Assembly (NCBI RefSeq): GCF_015143595.1
Contig: NZ_WYEU01000001.1
Location: 992,001-1,056,000, forward strand
Length of the DNA: 64,000 bases
Direction: 5' to 3'
DNA from: Sneathiella sp. P13V-1
GTDB lineage: Bacteria; Pseudomonadota; Alphaproteobacteria; Sneathiellales; Sneathiellaceae
A program made the translations under genes and the position numbers. Below are positions 2,570 through 17,262 of this stretch, piece after piece. Each line of letters starts with the position of its first letter. Position 1 is the first letter of the stretch. Below the pieces are notes generated by a model. The model was not told where the DNA came from, did not search any database, and was given only the letters and a program-made list of their open reading frames with translations.

Positions 2570-3328
2570 TTAATTCGCTTCGCGCTCAGCCCAACCGGCG
2601 AAGATTTTCTCCAGCACCACCACTACGTAATAAAGCGCGATACCCAGAAGGGCGAGGGCAATGAGAACGGCAAACATAAGCGGATAGTCCGCGTTGATTT
2701 TGCCGCTATCAAACAGGTGCCCAAGACCCCGACCATGTGGTTCAACAATCTCCATCAGGTTGGTTCCGATGAAGGCCAATGTCACTGCCACTTTCAACGC
2801 GCCGAAAAATTCTGGCAGTGTTTTCGGCAAGGCTATTTTACGGAAAATGGTGAGCTTGCTTGCGCCCAAGGAATGCAGGATATCCCGATATTCAGGCTCC
2901 AGCGTGCTAAGGCCGATGGAGATACTCACCGCGATCGGGAAGAAGGAGATCATGAAGGCGATCAGGATCGTATTCATGTCATGCTGTCCCACAAACAACA
3001 GGGCGACAACAGGCACAACCGTTGCCTTTGGTACCGCGTTAAAGCCAACCAAAAGCGGATACAGCGCTTCACGCATGGTGCGGGAGAAGCCCATGATCAT
3101 GCCAAGACCAAGCCCGAAAACAACCGCCAGCAAAAGGCCGACAATTGTCCTCCACAAAGTATCCCAGCCATATTCCAGAAACAGCGGCCAGTGCTTTAAG
3201 AAAGCCGGTCCCAGATCAGAAGGGGAGGCCATCACATAGTTCGGCCAGCTATTCACCCAAACAAGCGCTTCCCAAAGGAGCGCGAAAATAACGAGGGCGA
3301 GCACAGGAATTCCAAATTTACGGATCAT
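2570..3328 (-). CDS. ABC transporter permease, NMT1/nitrate-sulfonate-taurine type
   Basis: Inner-membrane permease of a SsuC/TauC/ThiX-like importer. About 252 residues with roughly six hydrophobic segments. The cytoplasmic EAA loop is visible as DILHSLGASKLTIFRKIALP, the coupling site for the ATPase. The frame extends upstream to 3421, but the start at 3328 (MIRKFGIPVLALVIF) is preferred: it lies two bases after the ATPase stop, has GGAGG upstream inside the ATPase gene, and removes a non-membrane extension. Gene order is binding protein, ATPase, permease on the minus strand, with near-overlap between ATPase and permease, so they are translationally coupled. The substrate cannot be read from the permease. 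Confidence 0.92.
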   Translation of the reverse strand: MIRKFGIPVLALVIFALLWEALVWVNSWPNYVMASPSDLGPAFLKHWPLFLEYGWDTLWRTIVGLLLAVVFGLGLGMIMGFSRTMREALYPLLVGFNAVPKATVVPVVALLFVGQHDMNTILIAFMISFFPIAVSISIGLSTLEPEYRDILHSLGASKLTIFRKIALPKTLPEFFGALKVAVTLAFIGTNLMEIVEPHGRGLGHLFDSGKINADYPLMFAVLIALALLGIALYYVVVVLEKIFAGWAEREAN

Positions 3329-3329
3329 A

Positions 3330-4118
3330 TCAGTGTCCCTCCATGTCGCGGCCCTGGGCGATCTGAATCTGATGGCGAAGGGTCGCCAGCATTTCCACTG
3401 CAGGCCCTTCATAGAGATCATCCAGTGTCCGATCAGGACCTAGCGGAACGTCCATGACAAACTGTGTTTTCGCCGGACGGCCGGACAAAACCACAACCTG
3501 ATCCGCAAGGAAAATGGATTCGCGCAAATCGTGGGTGATCAGAAGGCAGGTAAACTGCTCTTTATGGCGAAGGTCATGCATGATCTGCCACAGATCCTCA
3601 CGGGTGAAGGCATCCAGCGCGCCAAACGGTTCATCCATGATGAGAACATCCGGACGATGAACAAGAGCCCGACACAGGGAGGCACGCTGACGCATCCCGC
3701 CTGAAAGCTCGGACGGTTTTTTATCTTCAAACCCTTCAAGGCCCACCATGGCCAGAAGTTCGCGGCCACGATCTTCCCGTTCTTTTTTAGAAAGATTATT
3801 GGGCACAATTTCAAGGGGCAGCAGCACATTATCAAGAATGCTTCGCCATTGAAGTAGTACCGGATTTTGAAACGCCATACCCACGTTGGAACGCGGACCG
3901 GTTACCGGCTCCCCGTCCACGGAGACGGTCCCGCGATCGGGGATCATCAAGCCGGCGATAAGGCGTGTAAGGGTAGATTTGCCGCAGCCGGAGGGTCCGA
4001 CCACAGCCGTAAAGGCACCAGGGGAGATATCGACGTTCAGCCCGTTCAGCACATGCAGAGGGCCCGTGTCGGTCTTAAAGGTATGGTGCACATCAGAAAT
4101 GGAGATATGTGAACTCAT
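3330..4118 (-). CDS. ABC transporter ATP-binding protein, SsuB/TauB/ThiZ type
   Basis: Cytoplasmic ATPase that powers the adjoining importer. 262 residues with Walker A (GPSGCGKST, around residue 41), Q-loop (AFQNPVLLQW), signature LSGGMRQRASLCRAL, Walker B LIMDEPFGALD and the switch histidine in LLITHDLRES. The domain organisation matches the nitrate/sulfonate/taurine and thiamine-precursor class. It sits between the binding-protein gene, separated by a hairpin, and the permease, which starts two bases after its stop. Confidence 0.95.
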   Translation of the reverse strand: MSSHISISDVHHTFKTDTGPLHVLNGLNVDISPGAFTAVVGPSGCGKSTLTRLIAGLMIPDRGTVSVDGEPVTGPRSNVGMAFQNPVLLQWRSILDNVLLPLEIVPNNLSKKEREDRGRELLAMVGLEGFEDKKPSELSGGMRQRASLCRALVHRPDVLIMDEPFGALDAFTREDLWQIMHDLRHKEQFTCLLITHDLRESIFLADQVVVLSGRPAKTQFVMDVPLGPDRTLDDLYEGPAVEMLATLRHQIQIAQGRDMEGH

Positions 4119-4154
4119 GATGTCACTTCTGGAAAAATTCAGGCCAAAATAAAA

Positions 4155-4180
4155 GAAGAGGCCTCAGATGGGGCCTCTTC
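4155..4180 (-). terminator. Intercistronic hairpin / partial terminator between binding protein and ATPase
   Basis: Perfect 9-bp stem GAAGAGGCC (4155-4163) / GGCCTCTTC (4172-4180); on the minus strand it is followed by an interrupted T-rich stretch (TTTTATTTT). Such hairpins after binding-protein genes often reduce expression of the membrane components relative to the receptor. Confidence 0.75.
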
Positions 4181-4204
4181 CCGTTGATATAGATGTTGCC
4201 GTGC

Positions 4205-5224
4205 TTATTTCAGCATCAGGCTGCCATCTTTTGGCAGATAAGCGTCCGTATAGATCGCGCCGATATCTGGTGTGTTCTGGAACTTGTAGTTCTCACCCAG
4301 CTGCATAAGAGCTTTCTTCATGCGCGCCATGTCGATACCACCCATGCCATTGGCTTTGGTGTAATCTGTGACAACATTCTGGTCGATAGACAGTTTCAGG
4401 CGACGTGTTTCGAGCGCGACGTCAGAAGCAGGGTTGCGTTTAGCAACCATCTTTGCGCCTGCTTCTGGGTCTGCAATCACATCGTTCCAGCCTTTTGCAA
4501 CCGCAGACAGGAAGTTTGTCACTGTCCCTGCATTGGCTTTAGCAAAGTCTGTGTTCACGATGATGGCATTACCATAAAGGCTGAGGCCGTGATCTGCCAT
4601 CAGCAGAACTTTGATGTCATCTTCGGCAACACCCAAACGAACCAGGTTCAGAAAGCTGGAGAAGGAAAAGCCTGTGATCGCGTCAACATTACCTTCGGCA
4701 AGCATTGGCTCACGTGTTGGGAAACCAACTGGCTCCACTTTGATTTTGGACATGTCCAGACCGTTGGCAGCGGCAAAAGCCGGGAACTGTGCCCATGCGC
4801 CATCAGGTGGCGGTGCACCCAGAACCTTACCTTCAAGATCTTTCGGGCTGCTCACGCCTTGGGACGCACGACCCACAACAGCGAAAGGAGGCTTATCATA
4901 CACCATCATCACGGCTGTGACAGGCGCACCTGGATTTTGATCAAGGAATTTGATCAGGCTGTTGATATCCGCAAAGCCAAGCGGAAACTTGCCTGTGGCA
5001 ACCTTTGGAATGGCGTCCAATGAGCCTTTACCAGCAGAGATTTCTACATCAAGGCCAGCTGCTTTGAAGTGACCGTTATCTACAGCGGCGAAATAAGCAG
5101 CACTTGGACCTTCAAATTTCCAGTCGAGTGCGAACGGAATTTTTGTGTCTGCTGCGGCGCCAGACAGTGCCGCGCCCATGACCCCCGCTGCCGCTGTCAA
5201 AGACAGGACAAGTTTCTTTAACAT
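4205..5224 (-). CDS. NMT1/THI5-family ABC transporter substrate-binding protein
   Basis: Periplasmic receptor of the importer. 339 residues with a signal peptide (about 1-25, ending SGAAA) and the NMT1/THI5 fold: FALDWKFEGPSAAYFAAVDNG near the mature N terminus, then GYxxEI-like strand GLDVEISAGKGS, and a GNVDAITGFSF lobe. The family binds thiamine or pyrimidine precursors, riboflavin, nitrate, sulfonates or related small molecules; a thiamine/pyrimidine-precursor ligand is a guess, since no biosynthetic or salvage gene and no TPP riboswitch is seen beside it. ATG 5224 has GGGAGC at good spacing. First gene of the three-gene transport unit. Confidence 0.9.
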   Translation of the reverse strand: MLKKLVLSLTAAAGVMGAALSGAAADTKIPFALDWKFEGPSAAYFAAVDNGHFKAAGLDVEISAGKGSLDAIPKVATGKFPLGFADINSLIKFLDQNPGAPVTAVMMVYDKPPFAVVGRASQGVSSPKDLEGKVLGAPPPDGAWAQFPAFAAANGLDMSKIKVEPVGFPTREPMLAEGNVDAITGFSFSSFLNLVRLGVAEDDIKVLLMADHGLSLYGNAIIVNTDFAKANAGTVTNFLSAVAKGWNDVIADPEAGAKMVAKRNPASDVALETRRLKLSIDQNVVTDYTKANGMGGIDMARMKKALMQLGENYKFQNTPDIGAIYTDAYLPKDGSLMLK

Positions 5225-5703
5225 ATTTTATTGCTCCCAATATCAGATAAAATCTTGCCTCTATGACAGCAGATTGATGGACTTCAATCAAGTAAGAATT
5301 GTGCCAATTTAGTAGGCGAACCTAGTCTATAATTTCATCATCCTGCTGATTTTGCAGTCATTTCCTGAACCGCGGGTGAAAAAGTGAGGAAAGGGGGTGA
5401 AACTGTCAGAAAGTTCGGATTCACTTCAATCGCTTATAGCTTTGCTATAAAACAACGGAGCGGGTTGAGAAAACTGACTACAAAAGCGTCCTTCGCCTTC
5501 TCAACCGGGTTCAACCTGAAAAGTGAAACGGGACCTTGTGTTTAGCAGTTTTTATTGCACCATATAAAATTCAATAAAAATAATGTATGTTTTTGTTATG
5601 AAGAGGTTGGGCGAGATTTTTTGAACCTTTTTCGGATAGCCAACGACCAAGCATTATCCAAGTTCAATTGCTGCCCTGAAAAAGATCAGGAAGGAAGGAT
5701 AAT
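5225..5703. other. 479-base non-coding region with two inverted repeats
   Basis: Divergent promoter region between the importer operon and the secreted-protein gene. I see no convincing ORF or riboswitch. It contains TTATAGC-TTT-GCTATAA (5434-5450) and, further on, GGTTGAGAA (5463-5471) matching TTCTCAACC (5498-5506). The stretch 5560-5620 is A/T rich and could hold the promoter of the downstream gene. Confidence 0.6.
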
Positions 5704-6975
5704 ATGTTTAAGTATACGTCAAAGATCCTGAAGTTTGGCCTAGTAGCCTCTACAGTTTTAAGCACTGGTTCCGCGGTGGCGGCATCGGCACAGTATTCCG
5801 AATATATTGAGAGCATCTCTTTTGAGAGAAAAGCAGGCGTTCATATCGATGTTGTGTTGGAGAATGTCTCCCCAAACAAACATGTGGATAATGTCAAAAT
5901 CTTTCCAAAATCAGCCAATATACCAATCGAGTTTGATGGAACGGTAAGGTGTGAAAAAGACCGCAAAGTGGATTATCACGGCGCCAAGCTTTATTTTGGG
6001 GATGTTTCTCTGTTCGTTGACATGATCAATGTCGGTAATGCAGTTGATCTGGGAACATATTTTCCTAGTTACTATGAATGGACAGGAACCAGATGGGCAA
6101 ATGAATCTGGCAATAATGAAGCGTTTAATCTCTCGCTACTGACTGTTAAAAACCTGCCTGCCAATCTGCGTATTGACCCGGTAGCGGAGCTTAACAAAAA
6201 ACTGCAGGCCCATATGGCAGGTGGTAAAAGCAAGGCTTCCTTCTATCAGAAAGAACAGTTTATTGAACTCACCCGTCCGGTGACCCTTGCGGCGGCCTGT
6301 GAGAAATATATTTCTGCGGGGAAAGTTCCAAAAAAATGGGGATATAGAACTGCGAATGTCAAATTTGTCATTCGGTACGCGGGTGATCCCGAGGTTAACG
6401 AAACAGGAAAACTCAATCCGGTGCTAGGTAACAACCAGCCGGGGGGTGGAAATATTAATCAGAACTTGCCCTTGCAATTGACGGAAGCAACCTTCCAACC
6501 AAATATACCTCATTATATCGGCAAATGTGTGCCTAATCAGGATCCTAAAATCCGCTTTAACTTCAAAGGAAGCGGAAAGGGTAGCATCCAGTTTATCATC
6601 GAAGATGGCAGCAGCCCGGTCTACTCAACTCCTGTGATCGCCTATGATTCAAAAAGCCAGCATAATCGCTATCATGATTTCGACTATCCTTTGAAAGCCA
6701 AGATGGCGCAGAAAGCGGCTTGGAAAGTGGTCAACCAAACCATCAACCACAATCTTAAGATCCGAGCGAAGGTAAAAACGGCAGGTAGCAATGATTGGGG
6801 ACCTTATCAAAACTTCGGTCAGGCAGTGTGGAAGCATCGTTGCACACCACAAACGACTGTCCCAGGGTCCAACGGCGGAAAAGTATTCAACCCTCAAAAC
6901 TCAAACCCCGGAGACAAGCTGCAAATTCAGTTGAACAACACCTCTCCAAAGCCAGCGCGTAAAAGTAGTGACTAG
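5704..6975 (+). CDS. Secreted protein of unknown function
   Basis: 423 residues that I do not recognise. A signal peptide covers about residues 1-29 (lysine start, hydrophobic core, ending AVAASA), so the protein is exported. The body is rich in beta-prone, polar sequence; four or five cysteines outside the signal peptide could form disulfides (in VRCEKDRK, LAAACEKY, YIGKCVPNQ and KHRCTPQ). A glycine/asparagine-rich linker around residue 240 (NQPGGGNINQN) divides it into two parts, and the C-terminal tail is again Asn/Pro/Gly rich. No membrane anchor or sortase signal is seen. AGGAAGG lies 5-10 bases before ATG, a strong ribosome-binding site. It precedes the barrel/sigma/subtilase set by 145 bases, separated by a hairpin, so it may be a separate unit of the same surface system. 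Confidence 0.75.
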   Translation: MFKYTSKILKFGLVASTVLSTGSAVAASAQYSEYIESISFERKAGVHIDVVLENVSPNKHVDNVKIFPKSANIPIEFDGTVRCEKDRKVDYHGAKLYFGDVSLFVDMINVGNAVDLGTYFPSYYEWTGTRWANESGNNEAFNLSLLTVKNLPANLRIDPVAELNKKLQAHMAGGKSKASFYQKEQFIELTRPVTLAAACEKYISAGKVPKKWGYRTANVKFVIRYAGDPEVNETGKLNPVLGNNQPGGGNINQNLPLQLTEATFQPNIPHYIGKCVPNQDPKIRFNFKGSGKGSIQFIIEDGSSPVYSTPVIAYDSKSQHNRYHDFDYPLKAKMAQKAAWKVVNQTINHNLKIRAKVKTAGSNDWGPYQNFGQAVWKHRCTPQTTVPGSNGGKVFNPQNSNPGDKLQIQLNNTSPKPARKSSD

Positions 6976-6981
6976 AACAGG

Positions 6982-7009
6982 ATGGGCACCGGAGCGATCC
7001 GGTGCCCAT
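6982..7009 (+). terminator. Perfect 12-bp hairpin with GCGA loop after the secreted-protein gene
   Basis: ATGGGCACCGGA (6982-6993) pairs fully with TCCGGTGCCCAT (6998-7009) around a GCGA tetraloop. No T-tract follows, so it may act as an mRNA 3' end protector or a factor-aided terminator rather than a classical intrinsic one. Confidence 0.55.
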
Positions 7010-7120
7010 GGCATTCGGGCAACAACAAAAAATCGCGTGACCCTAGGTGTCGACTAATGCTTTTTGCTGATTTTTAAATTAGTGATATACATCTCGCGGG
7101 TCGTGCCTAATAAAAAGTGA

Positions 7121-9184
7121 GTGGATGGGGAAGTGGGGATTTTCTTGAGACATGAAAAAAGGCAAAGGCGTCTTTGGGCGTCGTCTGTTGCTTTGTCTGT
7201 TTTTCTTCTCCCGGCTTATGCTCAGGCAGAGATTAACTGGCCAGAAACTATCTCCGCGACAGGTGAAACTGGTCAGTTTGTTATTGCCCTTGATACGACT
7301 TCTGATGAGTGGGGGGCACGCACTGAAAATCTGATTATCGAGATTGATAATGTCGATGTTACCGAGCTGGTCGCTTTTACCCCTGCGGGTTTCCGTTATG
7401 AAGTTCTGCAGCCCCTTAAAGTGGGTCTGCATACGCTGAAGATTTACGAGGCGGATCAGGCTGGGGATTATCAATTGGTGCGGGAGTATCAGTTTGAAGC
7501 AACCGCGGATCAGGCCGGTGTGGCGAGCGGCGGATCGCTCACCCTTGAAAGCGATAACAGCCTCGAGATTTCCCAACGACTGTTTGAGACAAATATCACC
7601 TCATCCATTGACGATACAACAGCGTCGGGTGCGGGGAACACCTCTATTCGATATGAGAACGGTGGTTGGTCGCTGAATATCAACAGTAATTATTTCCTCG
7701 AAAGCGAAGAAGAGATTTCCCAGACAGGAAACGAATTTGATCTTGGGGAATATGACGCGCGTCTTGCCTATAGCGGCGATGGATATGGGGCCGAAGTAAA
7801 TCTGGGTCATCATGACGTGGGACTGGAAAGCCTCGCGTTTTCAGGTTTCAACAGACGGGGTGTCTCCTTAAAGACTAGTTTTCTGGATGATGCCATTCAG
7901 ATAACCGGGTTTAGCCTGTCCAGTGATAGCCTTGCGGGTGTGGATGATATTTCAGGGCAAAAAGAAGACAGCGGATATGTAGCCGGCGGTGCCGTTGCGA
8001 TCCGGCCTCTCTGGAATGAGATCGGCAAGATTGAGCTCACGGGTGTCTATTTTGATTCCAAGGGCGGGGAAGCTGATTTTGGCAGTGGGGGTGGTCTTGG
8101 TGTTGATGCGGCCCCCAAAGGGCAAGGGGCAGCGCTGATTGCAGATACCCTCTGGTATGAGGACCGTCTTCGGGTTCGCGGGGAATACGCCTATTCCAAT
8201 ATGGATCTGGATGGGGATGACGCCGCGCTGGATAAAGATAGTGCCAACGCACATGCCTACTCCCTTGATTATGATCTGATTAGGGATGACGGGACACATG
8301 ACACACCCACATCTTTAAAGATTGGCGCTAGATACGAGCGGATTGATACCTATTATTACAGTCTGGCTAATAGTGGTCTTGCCACGGACCGTGATGGGTT
8401 CACCGCTTATGCCAATATGTATTACGGGTCTTTTAACCTGAACGCCTTGTCGTCCGTATTCGTGAATAACGTTGATGATCATGAAGATCTGGCTACGGAT
8501 CGGGTGATTACTGCGTCGCTTGACGGCAGCTACAGTTTTGATCCGCAGGTAAACGAAGAAGGGGAGATCGGCTGGCTCGGTACCCCATTTATGGGCTTTG
8601 GCGTCAATTATATGGATGCCAATAGGGTGGATACCCCTGTTGGATATCTGGGGGATGATACCAACAATCACAGCGGAACCCTTTATTTTAATTTTGGCTC
8701 TTCCTATGAAACCTGGAACTGGCAGCTTGGATATAATCATGCCCTGTTTGTGGATGACACCAATGTGTCCTCAGATACAGCCAATGATCTGATTGATCTT
8801 AGCGCGTACTGGAATGTTTCAGATTACACCAGCCTCTCTGTTGGGGCACAGCTCAACAGGTATGAGCAGAAAGCGGATAGTGAACGTACCTATAGTGTTT
8901 CAGGCAATCTTGGACTGCAAACAGCCTTCATTCCCGACGTTCTTAACGCACGACTTGATTATAATATGAACCTTTCATCAGGCAGCAACGACATACCAGA
9001 TAGACACCTTCTGGCAACAGAGGTGGAATGGACTTTAATTCCTGCTGAAATCAATAGCGCCGGTGTTGCGCTGGCTTTCCGCGGGGCGATGGAGAAACAA
9101 CATGGTAATGAAGACAGCTCCCTGGACGATGCGGCTTACGAGGGCTTTTTCGTCCTTAAATTCAAAGCGCCGTTATTGTACTGA
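7121..9184 (+). CDS. Outer-membrane beta-barrel protein with N-terminal beta-sandwich domain (novel)
   Basis: About 687 residues, function unknown. After a signal peptide (SSVALSVFLLPAYAQA) comes an Ig-like domain of about 100 residues (INWPETISATGETG to YQFEAT). The rest, from about residue 150, is a long series of alternating hydrophobic/polar strands rich in Tyr, Gly, Asp and Asn, ending in FFVLKFKAPLLY, compatible with a C-terminal outer-membrane strand. This fits a large porin-like or secretion-type barrel, but no plug, TonB box or POTRA repeat is visible. The frame opens at GTG 7121; TTG 7145, preceded by a GGGG stretch and giving a compact signal peptide (RHEKRQRRLWAS), is an equally good start. 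Its stop is two bases from the next gene's ATG, so it leads a tight operon. Confidence 0.75.
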   Translation: MDGEVGIFLRHEKRQRRLWASSVALSVFLLPAYAQAEINWPETISATGETGQFVIALDTTSDEWGARTENLIIEIDNVDVTELVAFTPAGFRYEVLQPLKVGLHTLKIYEADQAGDYQLVREYQFEATADQAGVASGGSLTLESDNSLEISQRLFETNITSSIDDTTASGAGNTSIRYENGGWSLNINSNYFLESEEEISQTGNEFDLGEYDARLAYSGDGYGAEVNLGHHDVGLESLAFSGFNRRGVSLKTSFLDDAIQITGFSLSSDSLAGVDDISGQKEDSGYVAGGAVAIRPLWNEIGKIELTGVYFDSKGGEADFGSGGGLGVDAAPKGQGAALIADTLWYEDRLRVRGEYAYSNMDLDGDDAALDKDSANAHAYSLDYDLIRDDGTHDTPTSLKIGARYERIDTYYYSLANSGLATDRDGFTAYANMYYGSFNLNALSSVFVNNVDDHEDLATDRVITASLDGSYSFDPQVNEEGEIGWLGTPFMGFGVNYMDANRVDTPVGYLGDDTNNHSGTLYFNFGSSYETWNWQLGYNHALFVDDTNVSSDTANDLIDLSAYWNVSDYTSLSVGAQLNRYEQKADSERTYSVSGNLGLQTAFIPDVLNARLDYNMNLSSGSNDIPDRHLLATEVEWTLIPAEINSAGVALAFRGAMEKQHGNEDSSLDDAAYEGFFVLKFKAPLLY

Positions 9185-9185
9185 T

Positions 9186-10358
9186 ATGCGTAATCTTCAA
9201 TTTGGCTTGCTTGCGATATTTGCGTTCTGTGGTCTGATTGCGCCGCAAAGTGCAAATGCACTCGTGAATTCGGCAACCCCTGTTCCCGCAACCGTGACAG
9301 TTTCCCCCACGGGAGGATCCGTAACGATTACTTGGAGGGTTGTGCATACGATTTCTGCGCCGGCAACAACGGTCACCTCTTCCCCTGACTATCAGTTCAG
9401 GATTGACGGGGTTTTGATCAATACGGTTGCCAAAGTTCTGACCCGGACGACCACTCCGACAGTTGGTGTTCCTGAAACCCTTACCTATACGGAAACTCTT
9501 CCTATTTCTGCGGCAACGGCCATTCAGATTGCCAACGGTAATAACAATTCCACCTTCACCAGAACTTTCAATGATGGCGGGGGTGCGCAAACGGCTGTGG
9601 CCCGTGTCATTGTGGGCGGCGCAACGGGAGAGCTGTCGATCAATCGCATTGATCTTAGTTTCGAAAACGGAACGAAAACCAAGATCATTAATCAAAGCGA
9701 TCAGCTGCATGCCATCGCAGATGTATCATATCGTGCGCGTGGTTTGCTGGAAGCGGAATGGCGCGTTATTGATAGTAACTCCATCCGTGGGGGGCAGTTT
9801 GAGCGGGTGATCGGTCTGTCCAGACATCAGCTTAGCGCGCCGGGCAATGGCCGCATTCGGATTAAAAGTCCGCGCTTGCCGACGGATTTAAGCGGCTTGC
9901 ACCAAGTGCGCCTGTTCATTCGGAGCCCTGAGCTCAGATTTGAAGAGCCGGTCTTACGCTACTATGTCAGTCCTTCTGCTGTAACAGGTGCTGGTAGATT
10001 GCAGCCTATGCAGGTGGTGCAACCATCAGAAAATGCACTTCTTGGGCCTGACCTACAATTCGCATGGTTGTCAGTTCCTGGGGCGGCAGCCTATCAGATC
10101 GAAATTTTCGGCTCTGGCGCGCCTGGTAATCCGGTAGAAAATCTGAGCAAGGCCCCGTTGGTTGTAGGGGCGCTGGATATTGAGAAGCGCTTGGTTGCCG
10201 GGAAGGTAATCCCGGGTGACAAGACAGCAACTGTTCTGGCCCGTACCACTTTCCAGCATCTGGAGCATGGACGTGAGTATCTGTGGCGGATCAGGGCCAT
10301 CAATGACAACGGAAATGTGCTGTCTCAATCTGCTTTGAGAAAAATCAGGTTCCCTTAA
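9186..10358 (+). CDS. Secreted beta-sandwich (FN3-like) protein of unknown function
   Basis: 390 residues starting at ATG 9186, directly after the barrel gene's stop; the longer frame upstream is only an overlap into that gene. A signal peptide (LLAIFAFCGLIAPQSANA) is followed by a region rich in Thr/Val/Pro (about 30-150), a middle beta-rich region, and a C-terminal part (about 285-390) with a pattern of fibronectin-type domains: DLQFAWLSVPGAAAYQIEIF then EYLWRIRAINDNGN. The likely location is periplasm or cell surface. The tight junction (translation restart, no clear ribosome-binding site) suggests it is made together with the barrel and may be its partner or cargo. I cannot name a function. 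Confidence 0.75.
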   Translation: MRNLQFGLLAIFAFCGLIAPQSANALVNSATPVPATVTVSPTGGSVTITWRVVHTISAPATTVTSSPDYQFRIDGVLINTVAKVLTRTTTPTVGVPETLTYTETLPISAATAIQIANGNNNSTFTRTFNDGGGAQTAVARVIVGGATGELSINRIDLSFENGTKTKIINQSDQLHAIADVSYRARGLLEAEWRVIDSNSIRGGQFERVIGLSRHQLSAPGNGRIRIKSPRLPTDLSGLHQVRLFIRSPELRFEEPVLRYYVSPSAVTGAGRLQPMQVVQPSENALLGPDLQFAWLSVPGAAAYQIEIFGSGAPGNPVENLSKAPLVVGALDIEKRLVAGKVIPGDKTATVLARTTFQHLEHGREYLWRIRAINDNGNVLSQSALRKIRFP

Positions 10359-10396: not shown

Positions 10397-10954
10397 ATGG
10401 AAATGAATGGACCCTCAGATATTGAACTTATCGAAAGGATCGCCCGTCAGGAACGGGCGGCCTTTGATACGTTTTACAGGCGTCATGAAAGACGTCTCTA
10501 TCATTTTATCCTAAAAAAAATGAACGATCCGTCGGAGGCCTACGACATACTCCATGAAGTCTTTATGGAAATCTGGCGAAAAGCAGATCGGTTCGAAGGC
10601 AGATCAAAGGTGAGCACCTGGTTTTTCGGGATCGCCTTTAACAAGTCAGTGGACCGCCTGCGCAAAAAGATGCCAGACCAATTTCCTGAAGATGAAGATA
10701 TGGATATTGAGGATGAAGAGGTTTTAAATCCGATGGAGTTGGTTTCGGCAACAGAAGAAGCAACATTGATTGCAAAATGCGTTGAAAAGCTTGGGGAAGC
10801 TCAGCGCGCTGTTGTTCAGTTGGCTTTTTACGAAGATATGTCCTACCCGGAGATTGCCAAGGTTATTGAGCGTCCGGAAGGAACCGTAAAGACCCGCATA
10901 TTCCACGCCAAGCAGGCCTTAAAGCTCTGCATCTCTAAATTTGCAGGAGTATGA
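10397..10954 (+). CDS. ECF-type RNA polymerase sigma factor
   Basis: 185 residues with the two ECF domains. Region 2 (about 12-85) includes FYRRHERRLYHFILKKM and the -10 recognition/melting segment EVFMEIWRKADRFEGRSK-VSTWFFGIAFNK; region 4 (about 120-180) shows LGEAQRAVVQLAFYEDMSYPEIAKVI and PEGTVKTRIFHAKQAL, the -35 recognition helix-turn-helix. A short acidic linker (DEDMDIEDEE) joins them. The adjacent gene, overlapping by its ribosome-binding region, encodes a membrane anti-sigma factor, so this is a classic sigma/anti-sigma pair. The probable regulon includes the neighbouring barrel and subtilase genes; this is inference. Confidence 0.95.
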   Translation: MEMNGPSDIELIERIARQERAAFDTFYRRHERRLYHFILKKMNDPSEAYDILHEVFMEIWRKADRFEGRSKVSTWFFGIAFNKSVDRLRKKMPDQFPEDEDMDIEDEEVLNPMELVSATEEATLIAKCVEKLGEAQRAVVQLAFYEDMSYPEIAKVIERPEGTVKTRIFHAKQALKLCISKFAGV

Positions 10955-10956
10955 CC

Positions 10957-11562
10957 ATGACTGAGGTGGATAAAAATCTGGATCAGCTCTTACCCTTCTA
11001 CGCCAACGGGACGCTTGAAGGGGCCGAGAAAGAAGCTGTAGAGGCCCGATTAAGCGAAGACGCAGATTTCAGAGCCGAGCTTGCCTATTTGAAAGCCTTA
11101 CGTGCAAACATCCAAAGTGAAGAAATTGTCGGTAGTCCCGGTGAGTTGGGCTTGAAACGGCTCCATAAGGAGATGGACGCTGAGGATAGGATTTCAGCAC
11201 CACCTGCTCCGGCAAATGACAACAGCTTCTGGCGTCTGACAGCGATCGCTGCTGCCATTGCGCTGGTGATATCCGTTGGCATGCAAGTTTACGGGACTGT
11301 GTCAGGCGAGGATACTTATACGACGGCATCTGGGACCCAACAGATTGACGGGCCGGTGTTCCAGATCTTCTTTAAAGATGACAGCTCTGAAGTGGATATT
11401 AGAAGCTTGCTTCTGAAAGAAGGGCTGACGATCGTCGAAGGCCCCACGGAAATCGGTTATTACCGGATTGCCTCCCGGGCGAAACTTGACAATCAGGCGC
11501 TTGGCGCATTGTTGAAACGTTTATCTGCCTCCCCTCTCATTCAAGAGGCCCTTCAGGAGTAG
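10957..11562 (+). CDS. Membrane-anchored anti-sigma factor with protease-propeptide-like periplasmic domain
   Basis: 201 residues. The cytoplasmic part (about 1-88) is the helical anti-sigma type (LDQLLPFYANGTLEGAEKEAVEARL) but lacks the His-x3-Cys-x2-Cys zinc ligands of many such proteins. One transmembrane helix lies at about 93-113 (LTAIAAAIALVISVGMQVYG). The periplasmic part (about 134-201) has the pattern FQIFFKDDSSEVDIRSLL ... IVEGPTEIGYYRIA ... LLKRLSASPLIQEA, two beta-alpha-beta halves like a subtilisin propeptide (I9-like) fold. I chose ATG 10957 because GCAGGAG lies 7 bases upstream; ATG 10951 overlaps the sigma stop but is too close to that site. The secreted subtilase begins nine bases after it. 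Confidence 0.85.
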   Translation: MTEVDKNLDQLLPFYANGTLEGAEKEAVEARLSEDADFRAELAYLKALRANIQSEEIVGSPGELGLKRLHKEMDAEDRISAPPAPANDNSFWRLTAIAAAIALVISVGMQVYGTVSGEDTYTTASGTQQIDGPVFQIFFKDDSSEVDIRSLLLKEGLTIVEGPTEIGYYRIASRAKLDNQALGALLKRLSASPLIQEALQE

Positions 11563-11571
11563 GAGGTCCAG

Positions 11572-13191
11572 ATGACGCACCTTTTGCTCAAAATGATGTT
11601 GGTGTCAGCCTTATGGAGTTGGTCGTGTGCAGCAAATGCGCAAACCGCGCCAACGGATCCTGCAGGCTCTCCTTCCAGTTCGGTGCCGGGAACAAGCACT
11701 CCGCGTCCTGGCACTGCGCCTCTAACTTTGCCTGCTCGCCGCGTTCTTGGTGGGGCGTCCCTCAAACCCGCTCAGTTTTTGCGGTTTGAAGGAAGTTGCC
11801 TGCCCCCTCAAGGGATCTGGCGTCTTGTGGGGTCAAATTTTGCAGAAGGCCGAAGCACAGCCTATCGGTTATATCTGAAATCCAGTAAGGGAGATAAAAA
11901 AGCGCTGCCAATCTCGTCGGTGCGAAAAAACGTTATTTCCAGTCGTATCTCGTCATCTGATTTTCTGGAGAAGGGTCAAAAATACTGGTTCGAGCTTTAT
12001 GTGGGTCAACAGATTGTTGAAGGCCCCGGCAATCGGCTTCGCCTCGAAAGATGCACAGATGAAACCCCTTTGCTTTCCCCTTCGCGTGAGAGGGAATATC
12101 TACCCCGCGAAATTTTGGTCCAGTTACCGTTTAGCGCCTTTAGTGAGGCTGAGAAGCAAAGCATCGTTAGCCAGTTGCAAAGCTTAGGATACACCATCGC
12201 TCGCGATGAAACACTGGAGGTGCTGGAGGTTTATTTGCTCCGCATCGGGACGGGGGCTGGCGCGGATTTACCGTCATTGATCGATGAACTTCGTAACCGA
12301 TATCCTGAAGCGCAAATCGATTTCAACCATATTGCAACATTGGCAAATGGTCGAAAACACTACGGACGCAAATTATCAGGTCTTCCCGTGCCACCGCTTC
12401 AATGCGGGGTGCTGGAGACACTTCAAACACGGGTCGGAATTGTAGATGGCGGGGCAAATCTGAACCACAGTGCGCTGAAATCTGTGCCTAATGTGCATAT
12501 GGCTCGCTTTGGCGATGGTATATCGGCGGGAAGTATCGCAAGTGCTCACGGAACTGCTATTCTCTCTCAGTATAAAGGCGCAGACAAAGAACTGGATCTA
12601 AGGGGTCTGCTACCCAATTCCCATGTGTTTCTGGCAGATGTACTGGATGAGGAAAGCGGTAGTGGTAACAGTTTCACGGTGATAACGGGCCTCAATTGGT
12701 TGGCAAAAAGAAACGTAGATATCGTTTCCATTTCCATGGAGGGGCCGCCCAATCGATTGTTGGAGAAGGTCTTCCAGACGCTGGATCGGCTTGGGGTTTT
12801 TGTGATTGCCGCTGCCGGAAATGGGGGGCACAGGGGAAAGGCTGTCTTTCCCGCAGCATATCCGTCAGTGATCACTGTAACGGCGGTGGGGCCAACAAGG
12901 TCCATTTATGGTAAAGCCAATCAAGGGAGTTTCGTTGATATCGCCGCGCCGGGGTCGAGTATTTGGCTCGCTCGCAAAGACACAGGGGCAAGCTATCAAA
13001 CAGGAACCTCATTTGCGGTTCCTTTTGTCGTTTCAAAAGCGGCGCTGGTGCTTGGGAGTAGATCTAAAGGTTCTGGTTTTACACATACTGATCTGCGGCA
13101 GGCGCTCATACAACATGTGATCGATCTTGGCACAACGGGTCGGGATGATGTTTTTGGCGCTGGACTTGTTCAATTTTTTAATTGTGAATAA
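11572..13191 (+). CDS. Secreted subtilisin-like serine protease (S8 family)
   Basis: 539 residues. The signal peptide ends near residue 23 (SCAANA), followed by a Pro/Ser/Thr linker, a beta-rich domain (about 65-160), a propeptide-like domain (about 177-256, PREILVQLPFSAFSEAEKQ to PEAQIDFNHIA), and the S8 catalytic domain. The triad is intact: Asp292 in GIVDGGANLNH, His326 in SAHGTAILS, Ser480 in GTSFAVPF, with the oxyanion Asn in AAAGNGG. The ribosome-binding site GGAGG directly precedes ATG. It is the last gene of the barrel/sigma set and is followed by a terminator. Likely roles are processing of the surface proteins in the set or cleavage of the anti-sigma factor; neither is shown by the sequence. 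Confidence 0.92.
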   Translation: MTHLLLKMMLVSALWSWSCAANAQTAPTDPAGSPSSSVPGTSTPRPGTAPLTLPARRVLGGASLKPAQFLRFEGSCLPPQGIWRLVGSNFAEGRSTAYRLYLKSSKGDKKALPISSVRKNVISSRISSSDFLEKGQKYWFELYVGQQIVEGPGNRLRLERCTDETPLLSPSREREYLPREILVQLPFSAFSEAEKQSIVSQLQSLGYTIARDETLEVLEVYLLRIGTGAGADLPSLIDELRNRYPEAQIDFNHIATLANGRKHYGRKLSGLPVPPLQCGVLETLQTRVGIVDGGANLNHSALKSVPNVHMARFGDGISAGSIASAHGTAILSQYKGADKELDLRGLLPNSHVFLADVLDEESGSGNSFTVITGLNWLAKRNVDIVSISMEGPPNRLLEKVFQTLDRLGVFVIAAAGNGGHRGKAVFPAAYPSVITVTAVGPTRSIYGKANQGSFVDIAAPGSSIWLARKDTGASYQTGTSFAVPFVVSKAALVLGSRSKGSGFTHTDLRQALIQHVIDLGTTGRDDVFGAGLVQFFNCE

Positions 13192-16257: not shown

Positions 16258-16521
16258 TTGAATAGCCTTTTCCCTTTACTGGTGAGATACATAGATTGTT
16301 TTGCTTAGCATGTTTTCCCAATTGATCGTAATTTTTTACTGCTCTTTTTGGCCTAAACAGTAATTGAAATTTATCTTTGAACTGGAACTTAGAAACATTG
16401 ACAATTAACCATAAAGCAATCAAGATTCTGACAGACCTACCTTGGGAGTAAATGGTGATAAAAGCAGACATTTATACATCAACCGTAACAATAAAAATTA
16501 GTCGGATTGAGTATATTGTCG
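16258..16521. other. A/T-rich intergenic stretch without a convincing gene
   Basis: Divergent spacer between the lipoprotein and the trypsin-fold gene. A 77-codon frame exists on the minus strand (16238-16471), but it has no ribosome-binding site, no recognised domain and overlaps the lipoprotein start; I treat it as chance. No strong palindrome seen. Confidence 0.4.
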
Positions 16522-17262
16522 ATGCCTTTTAATTGTAGGTTCTGGCTGATTTTTGGCCTCTTCATTAGTCTATTTCCAATTTCTGTAGTGCATGCGGAAG
16601 ACGAATTATTTGCCGAACAAATCGGGCCGTGGAAGAGTATTGGCCGAATAAACAAGGACGGTGGATATTGCACGGGTATTCTTGTTGCCAAAAACAAGGT
16701 GCTGACAGCCGCTCATTGTCTATGGAATGTGAGCAGCAATAACTGGATAGCGCCCAATTTATTGCATTTTCTGCCCGGTTATCACAAAGGGCAGTATGAG
16801 GGACACGCAACCGGTGTTAGCTACATACTTCCTGAAAAATTCGCGGGCCTGACCACACTTAAAGAGATTGATCGCTCACAGGATTGGGCCGTGCTTACGA
16901 TTAACAGAGATCTTGGGAATGAACTTGGGTGGCTGGGCATCAAGTCAGAAAAGTTTGCCAATGCGTCCATTAAGGGCAAAACAGTAAGCCAGGCTGGATA
17001 TAGTAAGGATTTTGAATATGTCCTGACCGGTGACAGAACTTGCGAAATTAAAAATGTGCTCAAGATCGGGATCGACCTAAGTCCCGTATATCATCATAGC
17101 TGCAATACGGGGCGAGGTGATGCCGGCGCGCCCATCCTGATCGAAGAAGACGGCGAATTTAAAATTATTGGAATACACAGCTCCTCAATTAAGCGGTGGA
17201 AAATGTCAGACATCAGCATTGCCATTCCTGGACATTCTTTTGCGAATTATGTTCTTCAATGA
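16522..17262 (+). CDS. Secreted trypsin-fold (S1) protein with catalytic Ser replaced by Ala
   Basis: Chymotrypsin-fold protein, 246 residues from ATG 16522; TTG 16507 in the same frame is less likely. A signal peptide (FWLIFGLFISLFPISVVHA) directs export. The catalytic His is in LTAAHCLW and the Asp in DWAVLTI, but the nucleophile motif, normally GDSGGP, reads GDAGAP: the codon at 17122-17124 is GCC, alanine. The disulfide-type Cys pairs (YCTG ... AAHC; TCEI ... HHSCNTG) are kept. It is therefore either an inactive pseudo-protease (binding or scaffold role) or an enzyme that lost activity recently. The fold is otherwise complete, with no frameshift. Confidence 0.85.
   Translation: MPFNCRFWLIFGLFISLFPISVVHAEDELFAEQIGPWKSIGRINKDGGYCTGILVAKNKVLTAAHCLWNVSSNNWIAPNLLHFLPGYHKGQYEGHATGVSYILPEKFAGLTTLKEIDRSQDWAVLTINRDLGNELGWLGIKSEKFANASIKGKTVSQAGYSKDFEYVLTGDRTCEIKNVLKIGIDLSPVYHHSCNTGRGDAGAPILIEEDGEFKIIGIHSSSIKRWKMSDISIAIPGHSFANYVLQ

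Follow-up and report, generated by a model that had tools for sequence, protein, structure and literature searches.

The RseA–DegS and MucA–AlgW systems each combine an ECF sigma factor, a single-pass anti-sigma factor and a periplasmic protease, and operate by regulated proteolysis. The locus analysed here, from Sneathiella sp. P13V-1, resembles them in having an ECF sigma factor, a single-pass anti-sigma factor, a periplasmic protease and, elsewhere in the genome, a site-2 protease. It differs from them in two respects: the place of an HtrA-type PDZ protease is held by a co-encoded subtilase (in some relatives, by a caspase-like peptidase), and the candidate sensor is a homologue of subtilase prodomains.

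Subtilase prodomains and related inhibitors provide a second set of comparisons. The periplasmic domain of the anti-sigma factor has in common with the N-terminal prodomains of subtilases (PF22148; I9 fold, as in pro-subtilisin E, pro-Tk-subtilisin and PC1/3) its fold, its topology and a remote sequence homology. Unlike them, it is present in trans, as part of a membrane anti-sigma factor, it is devoid of a tail reaching the cleft and it carries an invariant GPxxxG loop. POIA1 (1itp, 1v5i), a stand-alone inhibitor of the I9 type, likewise places a prodomain fold in trans. However, POIA1 is a free inhibitor, whereas the anti-sigma domain is tethered, is presumably regulatory and is without the tail in most of its members.

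Two further systems associate a subtilase with a dedicated partner or with an ECF sigma factor. PopD is the co-encoded partner that controls PopC and is not known to be an anti-sigma factor. As at the present locus, the protease of this Myxococcus xanthus pair is reported to be a secreted subtilisin-like enzyme (PMC6434023). Subtilases and CHAT/caspase-type proteins occur in the gene context of ECF54 sigma factors, a group described in a review as having no anti-sigma factor (PMC8999054). By contrast, an anti-sigma gene is present at the locus studied here, and its product has a prodomain-like domain. In the literature searched, no account of an anti-sigma factor carrying a domain of this kind was found.

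Organization of the Locus and of the Upstream Cassette

The window, that is, the whole stretch of 64,000 nucleotides analysed, comes from a genome of 3.7 Mb. The genes of the sigma factor, the anti-sigma factor and the subtilase, all on the forward strand, form an operon-like run in which the first two overlap by 4 nt and the third starts 9 bases past the anti-sigma gene (Table 1). The closest named related locus, that of a Sneathiella MAG, shows 61% identity, and a sigma gene is found upstream of the anti-sigma gene in 77 of 80 related loci. In the window, the N-terminal part of the anti-sigma factor matches zf-HC2 (E 0.056) and the NCBIfam antisigma model (1.1e-10), both under the cut-off; zf-HC2 is matched in 25 of 31 relatives, with a best value of 3.4e-10. 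In Sneathiella glossodoripedis (L062), the anti-sigma gene (6001-6546) breaks its frame within the periplasmic C-terminal domain (hereafter C-domain) and the remainder continues in another frame, which corresponds either to a draft error or to a decayed copy.

The subtilase gene (11572-13191) is the only S8 gene detected in this genome, and D292, H326 and S480 are invariant across a 26-member subtilase alignment. A trypsin-like (S1) secreted protease is encoded a few kb downstream (16507-17262), with no sign of a tie to the cassette.

Table 1. Features of the locus, in coordinates of the window.
Feature	Position	Strand	Remarks
Putative ECF-type promoter, TTTTTGAACC-N17-CGAC	5622..5649	+	About 80 bp before the first cassette gene
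First cassette gene, secreted protein, no clear family	5704..6975	+	Homologues in 18/80 related loci
Second cassette gene, probable outer-membrane beta-barrel	7121..9184	+	Homologue in 39/69 loci
Third cassette gene, secreted, weak fn3 similarity	9063..10358	+	Homologue in 39/69 loci
ECF sigma factor	10397..10954	+	Sigma70_r2 2e-15, Sigma70_r4_2 5e-15
Membrane anti-sigma factor, 203 aa	10951..11562	+	Weak zf-HC2 and NCBIfam antisigma matches, both sub-cut-off
Transmembrane segment of the anti-sigma factor, about residues 96-113	11236..11289	+	From sequence; equivalent measured in relatives
Linker adjoining the membrane (TASG conserved at residues 125-128), putative site of cleavage	11290..11349	+	Cleavage inferred
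Periplasmic homologue of subtilase prodomains, residues 134-203, stopping at strand 4	11350..11559	+	
Subtilase (S8), secreted, 539 aa	11572..13191	+	PF00082 at 5e-24
Own prodomain of the subtilase, residues 176-257	12097..12342	+	Canonically docked in the model
Catalytic domain with D292, H326, S480	12430..13165	+	Triad invariant

The genes of three exported proteins of no clear family (5704-10358) lie before the sigma gene and accompany it in related loci. Pfam gave no match for the barrel protein of the window. The 39/69 counts for the barrel and fn3-like genes refer to those loci with enough upstream DNA. The true start of the third cassette gene is likely near 9183, and in Pelagibius-type loci the fn3-like gene is present twice.

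The pattern TTTTTGAACC-N16/17-CGAC is found 66-98 bp before the first cassette gene in the window and in several relatives, including loci where the sigma gene comes first. Genome-wide, this pattern is not enriched (5 matches, against 8 for a reversed control), so that no regulon is claimed. When the upstream sets were compared with mononucleotide shuffles, a GC-rich pair proved as frequent (14) as the TGAAC/CGAC pair; thus, only its steady position before the first gene favours the latter. The recurrence of the motif suggests possible autoregulation, and no more.

Conserved Association With a Secreted Protease

Related loci were collected with a pattern of the N-terminal anti-sigma part, hence independently of any protease. 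An S8 subtilase is encoded directly downstream in 61 of the 80 loci. In 11 others it is replaced at this place by a secreted caspase-like (C14) peptidase (L086, L089, L099, L101, L102, L105, L108, L110, L113, L114 and L115, to which L157 of genome G625 can be added from outside this set). Five loci end at a contig border, and three have neither protease directly downstream; in two of these (L087 and L112), an S8 gene lies elsewhere in the locus. PF00656 was matched at 3e-34 to 1e-38 in the three C14 loci scanned, and the C14 cases of the 80-locus set are assigned to Betaproteobacteria. The exchange of S8 for C14 is a swap of partners between unrelated protease families.

Across 36 genomes, an S8 gene lies within 3 kb of 36 of the 38 anti-sigma factors having the C-domain, as compared to 3 of 37 other zf-HC2 anti-sigma factors; one further C-domain protein of the 38 (G625) has a C14 gene. 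In 11 of the 36 genomes, the paired subtilase gene is the single S8 gene. This count covers 21 of the 34 positive genomes of a 398-genome search, plus the stronger matches only of another set. Thirteen positive genomes were left out of it: S8 adjoins the anti-sigma gene in six of them (G509, G541, G580, G652, G666, G732), no S8 is within reach in three (G604, G695, G745), the match is the S8 protein itself in G736, and G499, G536 and G596 are without a locus. At the edge of the G604 stretch (L188) there is a caspase-like match; in the same locus, a weak sigma match is flanked by two short ORFs that resemble C-domain anti-sigma factors and lie on opposite strands.

In a phylum-wide set of 30 loci, 26 have S8 and one has C14, while no S8 or C14 was found within about 1.5 kb in three (L171, L176, L178). 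In L185, which has a C-domain anti-sigma gene, neither a protease nor a sigma factor was detected over 9 kb. Gene order varies, the protease being encoded downstream, upstream or divergently, and the neighbourhood is kept. The module is present in Alpha-, Beta- and Gammaproteobacteria, with a few loci beyond (Nitrospiria, Mariprofundaceae).

Related alphaproteobacterial subtilases are also found beside other ECF sigma/anti-sigma genes, often divergently (L017, L022, L023 and L024, in G020, G080, G086 and G061, respectively). The anti-sigma factor of L024, the one read over its full length, lacks the prodomain-like domain and has another periplasmic part in its place. Such cases, together with the protease swaps, mean that the domain is not a device restricted to S8 enzymes. 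Moreover, since C14 peptidases have no such prodomain and yet are encoded beside the same domain, binding of S8 would not be its sole use. A functional link between the C-domain and the adjacent protease is likely.

Relationship of the Periplasmic Domain to Subtilase Prodomains

From the sequence of the window, an earlier note had proposed that the periplasmic part of the anti-sigma factor and the region preceding the catalytic domain of the subtilase share one succession of strands and helices. This resemblance is invisible in pairwise comparisons: BLASTP of the anti-sigma factor against the subtilase gave no match (best 16 bits, E 1.4), and searches of sequences with HMMs between both families matched 0/78 subtilases and 0/96 anti-sigma factors. 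Profiles were then compared, using 94 C-domains (2 of the 96 being too short) and 78 prodomains of the neighbouring subtilases. hhalign aligned them over 56 columns (E 2.4e-4, probability 44) in the proposed register of strands and helices; the shared pattern is thus real, and the limits that had been assigned to the domains are correct within a few residues. None of 200 column-shuffled profiles reached the observed score (23.3, against a maximum of 17.6), and reversed profiles scored 9-10. When the C-domain profile was scanned along the full subtilase, the prodomain was the best-scoring place.

Pfam searches point to the same family. PF22148 (Fervidolysin_NPro-like) matches 24 of 59 C-domains at E<=1 (best 2e-5), the runner-up family matching 2/59, which is also the count for ACT_4; it also matches 10 of 31 full-length anti-sigma factors. 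Most of these matches are weak, ten members compared with the 21-bit Pfam cut-off being either below it (best 20.9) or unmatched, and the domain of the window itself does not match PF22148. When 398 genomes were searched without a target, the C-domain profile picked out, in addition, the segment that immediately precedes S8 in an unrelated subtilase (G736, L184). Besides its S8 subtilase domain, that single protein (3185-7312) comprises dockerin/EF-hand repeats and a domain of the thermolysin (M4) type. In the PDB, a sequence search with the domain profile yielded no useful match (GspD being the best, at E 0.45), and no relative was found in the viral contigs searched.

A match of the window domain to Tox-MPTase5 (E 0.045 / 0.14) concerns 1 of the 59 members, is below cut-off and was taken as chance. 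A recent duplication of the neighbour's own prodomain was also considered. It was rejected as a simple account because PF22148 is found in 24/59 anti-sigma domains and in only 1/26 of the neighbours' own prodomains (E 0.058), and because the cross HMM searches gave nothing. The resemblance between the anti-sigma domain and subtilase prodomains is one of remote homology. As the domain is encoded on the anti-sigma gene and not N-terminal to an S8 domain of its own, it has to be called a homologue and not a propeptide.

AlphaFold2, run with 59 sequences, predicts for the anti-sigma domain a ferredoxin-like beta-alpha-beta-beta-alpha-beta fold (pLDDT 89), made of strand 136-141, helix 147-156, strand 159-163, strand 170-175, helix 181-193 and strand 197-202. 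The best PDB match found with VIA-align is the prodomain of PC1/3 (Z 8.8, 2.6 Å, 68 residues aligned); pro-subtilisin E has Z 8.1, and subtilase prodomains account for 15 of the 50 matches listed. Foldseek gave no match at E<=0.001, and 1itp (POIA1) ranked 28 there, with 28% identity over 72 columns. It should be noted that ACT/Lrp-type (Lrp/AsnC) domains score practically as high (Z 8.6, against 8.8 for prodomains), and that S6-type domains tie as well. The fold match was therefore judged insufficient as sole proof of kinship, since unrelated ferredoxin-like proteins do as well.

The C-domain and the subtilase were also folded together, as a single read-through chain, which informs on the two folds and on the docking of the subtilase's own prodomain, and not on an interface between the C-domain and the catalytic domain. 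In this model, the subtilase's own prodomain (residues 176-257) has the topology of the anti-sigma domain with high confidence (predicted strand 176-186, helix 192-204, strand 208-215, strand 220-226, helix 233-243 and strand 248-257), so that structure prediction gives both domains the common topology anticipated by the earlier note. Pro-Tk-subtilisin and pro-subtilisin E superpose on this prodomain and the catalytic domain together (Z 37.9, 336 residues aligned, from model residue 267). Thus, the subtilase has a normal prodomain docked in cis, and the anti-sigma domain is a second homologue, in trans. Overall, we consider it highly probable that the anti-sigma domain shares both ancestry and fold with subtilase prodomains.

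Co-evolution of the Periplasmic Domain

Mirror-tree distances were compared at 33 loci as partial correlations controlled for the other neighbours (sigma factor, anti-sigma N-terminal part, prodomain, fn3 protein and barrel). Loci with a frame break, a short or distant S8, or poor ends were dropped from the sets (L062, L073, L076, L082, L087, L094, L103 and L112). The C-domain tracks the catalytic domain of the subtilase with a partial r of 0.325 (0/500 permutations), although partial Mantel-type tests of this kind may overstate significance. Its values with the other partners are 0.24 (sigma factor), 0.08 (outer-membrane protein), 0.005 (fn3 protein), -0.03 (prodomain) and -0.06 (anti-sigma N-terminal part). 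Conversely, the strongest residual partners of the catalytic domain are its own prodomain (0.46) and the anti-sigma C-domain. The value for the C-domain and the catalytic domain stays at 0.30-0.44 over distance measures and subsets, and at 0.34-0.36 in 56 loci with fewer controls. In the subset without Gammaproteobacteria (19 loci), the sigma factor ties with the catalytic domain (0.33 vs 0.30). These covariations support a contact between the two domains, without being a proof of it.

The same data bear on another possible function, in which the domain would read a small ligand or an exported protein of the cassette, the protease being merely part of the regulated output of sigma. The fold is generic, as the tie with ACT/Lrp-type domains illustrates, and the GPxxxG loop, invariant in the anti-sigma domain, has no counterpart among the columns that are invariant in the subtilases. 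The three additional exported proteins of the cassette offer candidate partners, and the exchange of C14 for S8 is compatible with a regulated output. However, neither the fn3 protein nor the barrel shows residual co-evolution with the C-domain, even if the former reaches 0.28 in one subset, and the Pfam matches favour the prodomain family over ACT_4. Sensing of a ligand or of a cassette protein is, in our opinion, rather unlikely.

Tail, Linker and Proposed Mechanism

A prodomain blocks its protease through the residues that follow strand 4; subtilisin is the reference for this, and likewise for the length of the tail. In 39 of the 55 anti-sigma factors not paired with C14, 12-14 residues separate the anchor Leu from the C-terminus, and the four C14-linked members measured have 19-20 residues after it. 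The chain mostly stops at the last strand and then has no propeptide tail reaching the cleft. One version of the idea of the earlier note makes the domain a membrane-anchored, propeptide-like (I9) inhibitor that would act on the subtilase in trans and keep this protease silent at the inner membrane. An inhibitory-prodomain fold, a conserved pairing and co-evolution with the catalytic domain are what such an inhibitor should display, and a few members do have longer tails, with 20-25 residues past the anchor (L044, L048, L071, L094). This version is, however, unlikely, as most chains finish with strand 4 and do not extend to the active site, and the protease already possesses its own prodomain, which fills the canonical site in the model. 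The part of the earlier interpretation that stands is the shared fold and remote homology, the conserved pairing with a protease and the tracking of the catalytic domain; inhibition through the active-site cleft is unsupported as it was formulated. Docking or sensing, with the cleft left open, agrees better with these observations than plain inhibition does.

The linker between membrane and domain has an [AS][SG]G motif in 38 of the 68 loci without C14 and in none of the 11 C14 loci, while Arg is found in the linker of 11/11 C14 loci and 39/68 of the others. Different cutters would account for this pattern, and it could then be imagined that the domain is only a ferredoxin-like stalk without specific docking, whose exposed linker is cut by an abundant protease. 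Nevertheless, because the C14 loci largely represent one lineage (Betaproteobacteria), the linker difference may reflect descent. Moreover, the co-evolution sits in the domain itself, where a passive stalk would not need it, which makes cleavage of a mere stalk very unlikely.

The best reading of the available sequences is that the domain serves as a membrane-tethered docking or sensing device for the adjacent protease, probably leading to cleavage of the anti-sigma factor. Its kinship with prodomains, together with its encoding beside a protease in many bacteria, suggests direct communication between protease and switch. According to the profile and fold evidence, the domain and the N-terminal prodomains of subtilases come from a common stock, the C-terminal plug tail having been lost, or never been present, in the anti-sigma lineage. 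Devoid of this plug, the domain would most likely dock on the prodomain-binding face of the catalytic domain without blocking the cleft; we regard the prospects of such docking as evenly balanced. In the docked state, the mature protease would lie close to the linker, which, with its small residues, is exposed on the outer side of the membrane. Cutting at this place would constitute site-1 cleavage, followed by RseP-type intramembrane proteolysis that would free the ECF sigma factor. A site-2-type M50 protease is indeed encoded in the genome (E 4e-64). That cleavage leads to sigma release is a possibility to which we give somewhat less credit than to docking. The freed sigma factor may then transcribe the entire cassette, including its own gene and that of the protease, as the recurring promoter motif would support, so that this surface or secretion cassette would be expressed according to the presence of subtilase in its active and released form. 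The place of the subtilase has been taken, in Betaproteobacteria, by a caspase-like peptidase that is likewise secreted.

Taken as a whole, the account in which sensing of the adjacent secreted protease by the anti-sigma factor leads to cleavage of this factor, to release of sigma and to transcription of the cassette is the best explanation we can offer, held at a little under even confidence.

Implications

More tentatively still, the loci may represent a widespread proteobacterial module, in which a tethered, tail-less prodomain homologue captures the active subtilase encoded with it and is cut by it, so that mature protease in the envelope triggers transcription, with a swap to a caspase-like peptidase in one lineage. 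If true, the cell would have a direct means to gauge how many active protease molecules its envelope contains. Such a module would also constitute a new kind of site-1 protease recognition and would show that a folding or inhibitor domain can be recruited as a sensor. Given the distribution of the module over three proteobacterial classes and a few loci outside them, a single experiment would be informative for many uncharacterised sigma factors.
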